DNA from: Thermococcus paralvinellae
GTDB lineage: Archaea > Methanobacteriota_B > Thermococci > Thermococcales > Thermococcaceae
DNA length: 64,000 nucleotides
Assembly (NCBI RefSeq): GCF_000517445.1
Contig: NZ_CP006965.1
Coordinates: 496,001-560,000, forward strand
Direction: 5' to 3'
Part shown: one piece after another, positions 13,064-16,349 of the stretch
Layout of the letters: the number at the start of each line of letters is the position of its first letter
Numbering within the stretch: the stretch's first letter is position 1
Program-made: the position numbers and the translations under genes
Notes under the pieces: model-generated
The model's input: only the letters and a program-made list of their open reading frames with translations
Databases searched by the model: none
Told to the model about the DNA's origin: nothing

Positions 13064-13444
13064 TCAGTGTTTTAAGACAGAGTCATCTTCGAGTTTTTTC
13101 ATTTCTTCTTCAGTTCCAACCCATACAACTATGACGGGCTCAATGGTTATCATGCCGTCCTTAATCATAGGTTTTATTTCACAAATTGCTTTTTCTATTT
13201 TATGACCTCTATCCACGACTTCCACTATTATTGGCATGTCTGCTGAGAGCCTCAATACATCGGCAGAGTGTAGTTTGCTTTTCTTACCAAAACCCAGAAT
13301 TCCCCTATAAACCGTTGCTCCAGCCATGCCCATCTCTCTTAGCTTCTCAACAATCGCTTTGTAGAGAGGCTTACCTTTGTAAGTATCGTTTTCTCCGATG
13401 TATATCTTCAATCTCAAGGTGTTCCAGTGCTCAACTTCAACCAT
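13064..13444 (-). CDS. DUF190 (GlnB-like fold) protein, CrcB-associated
   Basis: A 126-residue cytoplasmic protein with the DUF190 pattern: [26 protein letters not shown], then [40 protein letters not shown]. The fold is a PII-like ferredoxin fold. DUF190 genes are commonly found next to crcB, as here: its ribosome site GGAGGTGAT lies over the last codons of crcB and the ATG (13444) is four bases after crcB's stop. A role with the fluoride channel is inferred from this pairing. It is the last gene of the six-gene operon headed by the fluoride riboswitch. Confidence 0.88.
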
Positions 13445-13448
13445 AAAA

Positions 13449-13820
13449 TCACCTCCTTGCAAGTATGAATCCTAAAAACACTAAGCTGATTGTAACAACA
13501 ATATTTGCGGAGATATTAATCAGAGCTAAGATGTATTCTCTCTGTCTTAAGAGGACAAAAGTCTCATAGGAAAATGTTGAAAATGTGCTTAAAGAGCCGC
13601 AGAAACCCGTGCCAAAGAAGAGCCTTGTTGCTGATGAGACATCATAGCCAAAGAACATTAGTCCATAAAAGTAGCCGAGCAGAAAGCTCGCTATGCTGTT
13701 CACCAAAAGCGTTCCTACTGGGAAGTCTTTGTAGACTGGCAGAATTCCGGATATGTAGAATCTTGTCAACGCTCCCATTGCCCCTCCAAGGGCTATTGCA
13801 ACTATAAGCTTAGCGTTCAT
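13449..13820 (-). CDS. crcB: Fluoride ion channel CrcB/Fluc
   Basis: A 123-residue membrane protein with four predicted helices and hallmark motifs: [14 protein letters not shown] near residue 14, [21 protein letters not shown] near 35 (the conserved Asn), and [17 protein letters not shown] near 75 (the Phe-box and Ser/Thr track). Fluc channels are dual-topology dimers that expel fluoride. It is the fifth gene behind a fluoride riboswitch located about 2.4 kb upstream. The preceding frame ends only three bases before its ATG. Confidence 0.95.
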
Positions 13821-13823
13821 TTT

Positions 13824-14405
13824 TCAACCCACCTTTAGGTAGTATTCCGCAATTTCCTCCACTCTCTTGCTGAGACCATTTCCTCCCAGCATTTTGTTCT
13901 CCGACGCATAGCCAAGTATTTTTATTGCAAGCAGTCTATTGGTTGTGTAGACTTCATAGTTCTCACATGTTTTACCCTCTCATTTACTCCTTTCCCTTTT
14001 TTCGAATTGGAGATAGCAGTGGATAAGCTTTTCAATTTCTCTGTAGTCTTTCTCTTTTTTCCCAAGCATCTTCCTAAGCCTTTTGTTTTCCGCAACAAGT
14101 CCAGAAAGCTGGATTGCCAAATTCTGATTGTCCATTGCTATTCCATAGGAAGCAAACTTCAGCGGAGACCACTTGCCCTCAATCTCATAGAGCTTTTCTT
14201 CAAGCTTTCTCACTTCCTCTCTCAGCTTTTTAACGTCCATGTTGGTGTTTTCATTCAAAAACTCTCCGAGAAGAATTATTTTGAGGGCTTCATCTAACCT
14301 AAACCCGTGCTTTTCAGCAATCTTCTTAATCTTCTCAAAAGTTTCGTCATCAATTTGGAATACGACTTTTCTCCAACCTACTTCAGGCTTTACTACAATT
14401 TTCAT
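13824..14405 (-). CDS. Ribbon-helix-helix-like/coiled-coil protein, interrupted by an in-frame TGA
   Basis: The first 141 codons (14405 down to 13980) encode an N-terminal segment like a DNA-binding ribbon-helix-helix (WRKVVFQIDDETFEKIKKIAEKHGFRLDEALKIILLGEF) and then a coiled coil (LREEVRKLEEKLYEIEG). TGA at 13982-13980 ends this frame, but the same frame continues with 51 coding-like sense codons (VYTTNRLLAIKILGYA..., GLSKRVEEIAEYYLKVG) up to a TGA three bases before crcB. With a sense codon at the TGA the product would be 193 residues. A nonsense mutation, a sequencing error (TGG to TGA) or true readthrough are all possible. It overlaps the upstream coiled-coil gene. Function unknown. Confidence 0.6.
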
Positions 14406-14703
14406 ATTCTTTCATCTCTTCTCTCAGTTTTCTGTTTTCCAGGCTGAGTTGCAATCTAAGTTTTTTCATTTTTTCTTTATCTCGCTTGGCTTTTTTGTTG
14501 AACTCTAACAGCATTTTATAGTGAGCTTCAACTTCCTTGAGCTTCTTTTCCAGCCTCTCACGCTTTTCAGCTAGATACTTAATTTCGAGAAGCTCCAGAG
14601 TTCTCTCAAGCTCTTCAAGGGAATTGAACCTCTTCTGAATTTCTCGCTTTTCCTTCCTAATTTTGTGGAATTCCTCACAGCTGACTCTAATCTCTATTTC
14701 CAA
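14383..14703 (-). CDS. Small coiled-coil protein of unknown function
   Basis: A 106-residue, highly charged protein that is almost all predicted coiled coil (heptads from IRKEKREIQKRFNSLEELERTL through EKLKKLRLQL-like repeats, ending LREEMKEYENC). The start is TTG at 14703 with GGAGG six bases upstream; both flanking genes overlap it (17 and 23 bases), so it is translationally coupled within the fluoride-riboswitch operon. I do not recognise a family. A scaffold or partner role for the neighbouring coiled-coil protein is only a guess. Confidence 0.6.
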   Translation of the reverse strand: MEIEIRVSCEEFHKIRKEKREIQKRFNSLEELERTLELLEIKYLAEKRERLEKKLKEVEAHYKMLLEFNKKAKRDKEKMKKLRLQLSLENRKLREEMKEYENCSKA

Positions 14704-15379
14704 GGAAAAACCTCCGTTGTTTTCGTTTCTTTACAAAATTAACCTCCAATGGGAGACCCTTAAGGCTCTCAATAGCTTTAAGCACTGATGTGGCTTCTCT
14801 TTCTGTCGGAGCTTCTTTTGACCGGTAGTCAAATTTTTCAATAAAAGCCCTCATTAGATCTTTAGTTCTCTCAAGCTTTTCTATTTGAATTTTTCTCAGC
14901 TCTTCAGCTAGTCCTGAATTTCTTTTTTTGAGGATAGATATCAGCTCTTCATAGTGCTTTTTGCATAGAATGGCTTCTGAGTCCTTATATTCTTCAATAA
15001 GCTCGCTGAGTCTGTCAGCTAGGGCTTCTATGGTATGCTGCTCCTTTATCTCGACTAAATCACAAAGGTAGCACTTCTTCTCTTCGAGATTTTTCCCGCT
15101 TTTGAGGGAATTAATGTAAATGGAAAGCATGTGCTCGTAAATAATCGCCACTCCAAGCCCACCGTAGAGAGGGTTTGAATATGCTATCTCCTTCATTTTC
15201 CATGCATGATAAGTGCATAAGCCTAAGCTCTCTGCAAACTTCTCTCTAACGCTGGGAGTGTTGACATGCTCATAAAGTATCTGGCCGATTATGTCCTCTT
15301 CGTACTTTTTGAGTATCCTGCACACTGGACAGCCGGACTCTTGAATAGCCTCTCTTAAATAAATCCCAATCAAATCCAT
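14687..15379 (-). CDS. DUF6062-like protein with Cys-pair motifs
   Basis: A 230-residue protein. Near the N-terminus it has SGCPVCRILKKYEEDII, then LCTYHAWKM near residue 52, and later CYLCDLVEIKEQ near 105 and LCKKHYEEL near 140. The repeated CxxC plus C-x(2)-H pattern suggests two similar metal-binding or redox modules arranged as an internal duplication. This fits the DUF6062 family of unknown function. The ATG at 15379 follows GAGG, which overlaps the stop region of the upstream gene. It is the second gene of the fluoride-riboswitch operon. No known fluoride link. Confidence 0.65.
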   Translation of the reverse strand: MDLIGIYLREAIQESGCPVCRILKKYEEDIIGQILYEHVNTPSVREKFAESLGLCTYHAWKMKEIAYSNPLYGGLGVAIIYEHMLSIYINSLKSGKNLEEKKCYLCDLVEIKEQHTIEALADRLSELIEEYKDSEAILCKKHYEELISILKKRNSGLAEELRKIQIEKLERTKDLMRAFIEKFDYRSKEAPTEREATSVLKAIESLKGLPLEVNFVKKRKQRRFFLGNRD

Positions 15380-15388
15380 AGCCATTCC

Positions 15389-16243
15389 TCAGAAGCTGAG
15401 CAAGTCGCTCAAAGCTCTCAATGCTCTGTATGTGTTCTGGAAGTTTGAGATTCCCATCTCTAATGATCTTCTAAATCCTCCGTTGGGGTTTTGGAGAGCT
15501 CTTATGAACTTGATGTGTTCTTTTATGTATCTTGGCTTTTTCCCAAGGAGCTTCAGACCTCTTATCGCATAAAACGTTGGTTCGAGATACGGTGGTAGAG
15601 ATAGTGGCACCTCTGTAAAGCCCCCATAGACTTCACACTCTTCAAAGAACCTTGTTTTTGGGATTGGGTATCCCAGAGCGTTTAGAGAGTAGAGCGCTTG
15701 GTACGTCATTGTAACTGTTGGCTGGTTAACTCCATAGCCGTTACCTTTTCTAAAGCTTTCAATGAACTCTCTAATTTTTTCTTTCATCTCATTTTCTAGC
15801 TTGTAACCTAAGATTGAAACTGCTCTGAGAACCCAATAAGTTGATTCTAAAGGCGTTGCTGCTCCAAACTCTTCACTACCCCCTAGTCCAACAGAGAACT
15901 GTCCCTCAAGGGGGTTGTACTTCTTGAAGATGTAATGAAGCTTTTCCAATGCCAAATCCACTGCTCCTAAGATTGCAAGAGCTTCGCTTGCCATTGCAAG
16001 AGCAACTGTAGCTCTGTGAGCTTGTGCTGAATTGTTCAAGAATTCAATTGTCTTTTCTTTCTCGGGAATTTCAAGATTGAGCAGATCGTAAATTTTAACG
16101 GCATAATATGTGTCATTTATGTTGGTTTCATTTAGGAGTGAGACGAAGCAGTAGCCTCCATCCTCATGGCGTCTCTTTGAGATGTAATTAATGGCAGCAT
16201 TAATATCCACATATCTCCCAAGTTCATAAAGCTTCGAGCCCAT
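15389..16243 (-). CDS. Prenyltransferase/terpene-cyclase-type alpha-toroid repeat protein
   Basis: A 284-residue protein built of about five alpha-alpha repeats of the prenyltransferase-beta/squalene-cyclase type. Each has a Gly-rich turn and a Tyr/Thr-Ala helix: HEDGGYCFV...NDTYYAVKIYDLL, FSVGLGG...ESTYWVLRAVSIL, GNGYGV...MTYQALYSLNAL, YGGF...EPTFYAIRGLKLL, NGGFRR...QNTYRALRAL. The zinc ligands of protein prenyltransferases and the DXDD motif of cyclases are not evident, so catalysis is unproven. It is the first gene behind the fluoride riboswitch, with GGGAGG and GCGGT before the ATG. The substrate or binding partner is unknown. Confidence 0.7.
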   Translation of the reverse strand: MGSKLYELGRYVDINAAINYISKRRHEDGGYCFVSLLNETNINDTYYAVKIYDLLNLEIPEKEKTIEFLNNSAQAHRATVALAMASEALAILGAVDLALEKLHYIFKKYNPLEGQFSVGLGGSEEFGAATPLESTYWVLRAVSILGYKLENEMKEKIREFIESFRKGNGYGVNQPTVTMTYQALYSLNALGYPIPKTRFFEECEVYGGFTEVPLSLPPYLEPTFYAIRGLKLLGKKPRYIKEHIKFIRALQNPNGGFRRSLEMGISNFQNTYRALRALSDLLSF

Positions 16244-16281
16244 TCTACCGCCTCCCAGATGTTTTATAATAATTAGCGGTT

Positions 16282-16349
16282 AGAACAGGCGTCATCAGCC
16301 CTTTGCGGGCGGTTCGGGCTCGAAGCCCGGGCGGACGCCATCGCCCGAG
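16282..16349 (-). ncRNA. Fluoride riboswitch (crcB motif)
   Basis: On the minus strand the leader reads GGGCGATG (16346-16339), stem strand GCGTC, CGCCC, an extra hairpin GGGC-TTCGA-GCCC, GAACC, hairpin GCCC-GCAAA-GGGC, then TGATGACGCC. Known crcB-motif aptamers have the same order: GGGCGAUG, stem strand, CGCCC for the pseudoknot, (A)AACC/ACU, GCCC loop GGGC, UGAUG and the closing stem. Here GGCGTC (16339-16334) pairs with GACGCC (16293-16288). Only the extra hairpin is unusual. A TATA box at 16370-16376 puts the transcript start at about 16348, right at the aptamer. Downstream, ACCGC can pair with GCGGT next to the ATG of the first gene, a possible switch for translation. Confidence 0.88.

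Follow-up and report, generated by a model that had tools for sequence, protein, structure and literature searches.

A fluoride riboswitch of Thermococcales archaea, its constant partner gene and an aptamer hairpin complementary to the first codons of that gene

The stretch of DNA analysed here, a window of 64,000 nucleotides from Thermococcus paralvinellae (contig NZ_CP006965.1, positions 496,001 to 560,000), carries a fluoride riboswitch directly upstream of a gene for an alpha-alpha toroid protein, hereafter TOR, which we take, from gene order, to be the ortholog of T. kodakarensis TK0513. Wherever the riboswitch was found among Thermococcales it heads this gene, and a hairpin conserved within its aptamer is complementary to the first TOR codons. 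The element is quite probably a translational fluoride-ON riboswitch dedicated to TOR, a toroid protein specific to Thermococcales, whose start region would be masked when fluoride is absent. All coordinates are window positions, and the riboswitch and the operon genes lie on the minus strand.

The aptamer and the gene that it serves

A covariance search matched RF01734 at 16354-16279 (-) with 54.4 bits (E 2.4e-13, gathering score 34) over the full model (1-64), and the 1.96-Mb genome contains no other copy. The crcB-motif aptamer that a sequence-only reading of the window had proposed is thereby confirmed, with the elements that it listed: P1 (GGGCG/CGCCC), P3 (GCCC/GGGC), TGATGACGCC and the hairpin GGGC-TTCGA-GCCC. 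Its six-base "stem" GGCGTC/GACGCC is also present in the sequence, but constitutes the aptamer pseudoknot, which across leaders takes the form GGCGTC/GACGCC or GGCGCC/GGCGCC. At the TATA box from which the same reading placed the transcript start, the sequence is TATA-like; by this sequence, TTTAAA at 16373-16368 (-) would put the start of the RNA at the aptamer. The features of the leader are the following.

16368-16373 (-): TATA-like box TTTAAA of the leader (sequence reading)
16279-16354 (-): fluoride riboswitch aptamer, RF01734 (54.4 bits, E 2.4e-13)
16334-16339 (-): pseudoknot 5' strand GGCGTC (RF01734 consensus match)
16316-16328 (-): extra hairpin GGGCTTCGAGCCC inside the aptamer (strand 16326-16315 complementary to 16242-16231)
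16288-16293 (-): pseudoknot 3' strand GACGCC (alternative pairing of CGCCT with the Shine-Dalgarno AGGCG in the RNAalifold consensus of 82 leaders and in pair counts)
16249-16256 (-): Shine-Dalgarno region GGGAGGCG (GGAGGC in 50/62 leaders)
16231-16243 (-): TOR codons 1-5, start codon included (ATGGGCTCGAAGC), which the hairpin strand targets (synonymous conservation)

The operon was compared across 94 Thermococcales genomes, all of them searched for RF01734 and for TOR, and 64 loci were examined for gene content. The riboswitch is present in 88 of the 94 genomes and TOR in 90, and in 88/88 riboswitch-bearing genomes TOR lies directly downstream. TOR occurs without the riboswitch in G012, whose aptamer has an eroded 5' half, and in G081, whose TOR gene is broken; the four genomes that have neither are incomplete assemblies. 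The constant partner of the riboswitch is TOR, and the middle genes of the operon are optional. The operon in the window is composed of the following genes.

15389-16243 (-): TOR, alpha-alpha toroid protein, 284 aa (PF00432, 60 bits; in 90/94 Thermococcales genomes; RabGGTase beta, TM 0.73)
14687-15385 (-): DUF6062 protein with two CxxC...CxxH sets, an accessory gene (PF19538, 78 bits)
14383-14703 (-): coiled-coil protein 1, CC1 (no family above cut-off; operon position conserved)
13980-14405 (-): coiled-coil protein 2, CC2, with a possible ribbon-helix-helix N-terminus (RHH_1 in 3/24 relatives, weak)
13825-13964 (-): remains of two small genes (an open frame that lacks a start)
13449-13820 (-): crcB, Fluc fluoride channel (PF02537, 95.7 bits; TIGR00494, 89.0 against a cut-off of 80.45)
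13064-13444 (-): DUF190 (P-II-like) protein (PF02641, 132 bits)

Among the 64 loci, crcB with DUF190 is found nearby in 54, CC2 in 49, CC1 in 44 and DUF6062 in 38. Within the Pyrococcus-like genus (G004-G012), TOR, CC1 and CC2 follow the riboswitch, and crcB is distant or was not found; the exception is G012, which keeps TOR and has neither CC1 nor CC2, and in whose genome no crcB was found, yet TOR is intact. In G020, a Thermococcus, crcB is located approximately 110 kb from the riboswitch and TOR, whereas in most of the remaining genomes it lies downstream of TOR. No riboswitch precedes the unlinked crcB in the crcB promoter regions that were read (G004, G020). An exporter gene is thus not a fixed feature under the riboswitch across relatives, and TOR retains the riboswitch where crcB is unlinked. 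A riboswitch that is primarily a regulator of crcB was considered and is ruled out by this linkage.

The sequence-only reading had described six genes, nearly all overlapping, under joint fluoride control. The list itself (toroid, DUF6062, two coiled-coil proteins, CrcB and DUF190) holds, except that a gap of 159 nt, which contains the small-gene remnant, separates CC2 from crcB. That all six genes, crcB included, are co-regulated on a single fluoride-controlled transcript is possible but doubtful, and could hold in part alongside a switch dedicated to TOR. All the genes share the same strand, the first four open reading frames overlap or sit 3 nt apart, and crcB stays downstream in 54/64 loci; against this, crcB lies beyond the 159-nt gap, is unlinked and riboswitch-free in the Pyrococcus-like genomes and in G020, and in T. 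kodakarensis has a transcription start of its own (PMC4247193). Because of this separate start, the claim that crcB is co-regulated is only partly right. The same reading had ascribed an undescribed fluoride-response function to the first four genes together; its proposal that some undescribed gene responds to fluoride is supported, its emphasis on a crcB operon is not, and the genes between TOR and crcB are optional.

Several observations concern the surroundings of these genes. A divergent archaemetzincin-like (M54) gene at 16355-17410 (+) adjoins the riboswitch promoter; the GTG at 16355 is probably not its true start, and an ATG near 16421 fits better. Pyrococcus-like leaders (L076, L088-L093) contain, between promoter and aptamer, a structured element of approximately 60 nt with a stem GGAACC.../...GGTTCC around ATGAGCCGAAACCGGCAACGGGAGTAGG. 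By eye, its stems differ and the pairing is kept; it matches no Rfam family, and cores resembling it occur in many copies across Thermococcales. At seven loci (L094, L098, L103, L111, L112, L114 and L118) an insert of approximately 1.4-3 kb stands between CC2 (or TOR) and crcB, and its operon-strand frames resemble an antisense reading of opposite-strand genes.

Probable pairing between the aptamer hairpin and the TOR start

The hairpin is an insert of 12 nt relative to RF01734, at a point without model positions. It had been regarded as unusual, a judgement that does not hold within the lineage, where it is conserved. It likely pairs with the TOR start region, a role that the sequence-only reading had not mentioned; its conservation in most TOR leaders also rules out a peculiarity of this genome. 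In nearly all loci the hairpin can form 11-16 consecutive pairs with AUGGGCUCGAAGCUU (TOR codons 1-5), which in the window join 16326-16315 to 16242-16231, and its loop, UUCGA, matches codons 3-4 exactly. The codons themselves are nearly fixed: codon 2 is GGC in 60/60 loci with glycine, codon 3 is TCG in 95% and codon 4 is AAG in 58/58 with lysine, so that codons 2, 3 and 4 (GGC TCG AAG) rank 2nd, 1st and 7th in synonymous conservation among 158 comparable columns. The duplex between hairpin and start has a median energy of -23.4 kcal/mol, as opposed to -12.4 for synonymous recodings, and it beats 95% of these recodings in 72/87 loci.

Alignment of the leaders points in the same direction. In 70 distinct hairpin-bearing leaders, 816/816 cells of the 12-pair start helix are standard pairs, including the five variant pair types, whereas sliding the partner by 1-3 columns leaves 79-432/816 paired. 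The consensus fold of 82 leaders (RNAalifold) comprises the start helix, P1, P3 and a helix of CGCCU, from the 3' pseudoknot strand, with the AGGCG of the Shine-Dalgarno sequence, and the minimum-energy fold includes the start helix in 73/87 leaders at 37 °C and in 75/87 at 85 °C. In single-sequence folds the masking of the Shine-Dalgarno sequence alone is weak and uneven, and it was from these same folds that the start-codon helix emerged. Thirteen leaders have lost the hairpin or carry an altered one; as far as a TOR tree was built, they sit on scattered branches. In seven of them (L102, L123, L127, L128, L181, L183 and L193) codons 2-3 are altered too; the 75 leaders that keep the hairpin have no codon change other than AAG to GAG at codon 4, a substitution that preserves the pairing. 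The hairpin, being complementary to the first TOR codons, probably works as an off-switch.

Without fluoride, then, the strand of the extra hairpin would pair with TOR codons 1-5 and the 3' pseudoknot strand (CGCCT) with the Shine-Dalgarno AGGCG, and these two helices would block the ribosome from starting. Both use strands that the fluoride-bound aptamer needs. With fluoride, the pseudoknot and the local hairpin would therefore form and occupy both strands, freeing the Shine-Dalgarno sequence and the start codon. With a single start codon under its control, such a switch would reach the downstream genes, a linked crcB among them, at best by way of a shared transcript or translational coupling. 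The role proposed for TOR is that of a factor for fluoride tolerance acting beside CrcB. The analysis establishes the riboswitch, its linkage to TOR and the conserved complementarity, from which a response to fluoride, its direction and the role of TOR are inferred. A broader proposal, on which the balance is about even, is that the Thermococcales aptamer took a start-codon antisense hairpin into its core, and that aptamer, expression platform and first codons form one switch in the service of a lineage-specific toroid protein that confers fluoride tolerance independently of CrcB.

A number of points weigh against this mechanism. The hairpin-bearing set was selected by CTTCG in the hairpin, so that part of one strand was fixed beforehand, and the 816/816 count therefore informs mainly on the codon side and the outer positions. 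Six of the 13 hairpin-changed leaders retain the GGCTCG codons, so the link between hairpin and codons is strong and not absolute; G012 (L080) likewise keeps the frozen first codons though its aptamer is destroyed. Two-sided compensatory changes of hairpin and codons were not found, only one-sided changes of the G-U type. Approximately 2-5% of synonymous recodings per locus give an equally good duplex, and a single locus therefore proves little. Finally, the folding energies ignore tertiary structure and derive from models fitted near 37 °C.

Another explanation is that this is an ordinary fluoride riboswitch that masks only the Shine-Dalgarno sequence, the hairpin being a structural spacer and the codon match reflecting no more than the conservation of the MGSKL codons, or some unrelated constraint acting on codons 2-5. 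The pairing of the Shine-Dalgarno sequence with the 3' pseudoknot strand is indeed conserved by itself (406/410 cells), codons are frozen in the six altered leaders just mentioned, and a second riboswitch, found before a hydrogenase operon, does without the hairpin. Even so, we consider this explanation unlikely: no other of the 158 columns is as synonymously frozen as codons 2-3, the loop reproduces codons 3-4 exactly, and codon changes are restricted to leaders in which the hairpin is lost or altered. Regulation by transcription attenuation is very improbable. In its favour, predicted terminators overlap many bacterial members of the class (PMC2864571) and a short leader RNA of 86 nt is listed for T. 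kodakarensis (PMC4247193), but no terminator-like hairpin with a T-run was seen by eye between aptamer and TOR start codon, and every conserved alternative pairing lies at the ribosome-binding site or the start codons.

Fifteen genomes of the largest genus (Thermococcus-like; L061-L075, e.g. L061:2418-2493) carry this second RF01734 copy, placed before a hydrogenase or formate-hydrogenlyase-like operon, and an association between fluoride riboswitches and formate hydrogenlyase has already been reported (PMC2864571). It belongs to the same class as the TOR riboswitch but lacks the hairpin, and in 15/15 cases its start, GUGACGCC, repeats the aptamer's own 3' pseudoknot strand, a copy that could offer another way of masking the start. 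The energy test applied to these 15 loci was not significant locus by locus.

The toroid protein and its neighbours

TOR is well conserved: across 45 sequences, column identity averages 79%. Its structure model has a predicted local distance difference test (pLDDT) score of 91. The match in the PDB is RabGGTase beta, at a template-modelling (TM) score of 0.73. TOR shares the alpha-alpha toroid fold of this beta subunit of a protein prenyltransferase, but at approximately 16% identity, and differs from it in having no partner alpha subunit in the operon and no conserved D-x-C zinc motif, which by eye was not found in the consensus of the 45 proteins. Class II terpene cyclases, such as squalene-hopene cyclase, likewise have the toroid fold and the GG[FY] repeat motifs seen in TOR, but their DxDD motif was not found by eye in the same consensus. 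With the fold present and the known catalytic motifs absent, a true prenyltransferase or terpene cyclase was rejected as the identity of TOR. The loop at residues 119-127, poorly predicted and overlapping the almost invariant LGGSEEFG, is a plausible ligand site. At the sensitivity used, no relatives of TOR were found in 21 other genomes of the phylum, and a search of the genome collection returned Thermococcales only.

With regard to the remaining genes, DUF6062 has eight invariant residues (C19, C22, C57, H60, C105, C108, C141 and H144), and its CxxC...CxxH sets are probably two metal sites; a structure comparison aimed at its function gave no match in the PDB. For CC2 the best RHH_1 E-value among the three matching relatives is 1.9e-4. 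At the place of the small-gene remnant, relatives L081, L083 and L087 have two separate small open reading frames of about 57-94 aa. By inspection of Shine-Dalgarno spacing, the ATG at 13444 is a likelier start for DUF190 than the TTG at 13462. Elsewhere in the window, three C/D box RNAs exceed the Rfam cut-off, sR45 at 47195-47255 (+), sR5 at 32835-32891 (+) and sR28 at 53027-53081 (-), and two CRISPR-associated-looking frames at 18087-20652 (+) appear by eye to encode a Cas6-like protein followed by a large subunit-like protein.

Relation to previous work and implications

Speed et al. 2018 reportedly describe a fluoride-inducible system in T. kodakarensis. The fluoride riboswitch of this organism is cited as experimentally shown by these authors and as presumed translational in two later papers (PMC8241225; PMC11549558). 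The transcription-start map of T. kodakarensis placed a crcB RNA "surprisingly" before TK0513 and not before TK0514 (crcB), which has a separate start between the two genes (PMC4247193). This is the same riboswitch with the same target gene, TOR; the riboswitch and its neighbour gene are therefore not new, as they already figure in that work, which noted the gene order but included neither a family-wide survey nor the pairing of hairpin and start. The order-wide TOR rule, the unlinking of crcB and the pairing were not found in the searchable literature, which did not include Speed et al. 2018.

The TOR leader shares with the RF01734 class the aptamer sequence, the pseudoknot, the 5' leader position and a score far above the cut-off, but differs from it in the hairpin insert, in the likely control by start-codon pairing and in a first gene that is TOR and not an exporter. 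It is a known riboswitch class with a probably new mode of masking its gene, in the service of a conserved gene. If this is true, the off-state of a riboswitch depends on protein-coding sequence and on a helix buried in the ligand-binding domain, an example from the Archaea, among which very few riboswitches have been tested, and fusions in fluoride expression systems that lack the native first codons may leak. TOR/TK0513 would be, for a whole archaeal order, the main conserved gene that responds to fluoride, and would add a non-export route to fluoride survival, a function amenable to direct testing through gene deletion in a model organism.

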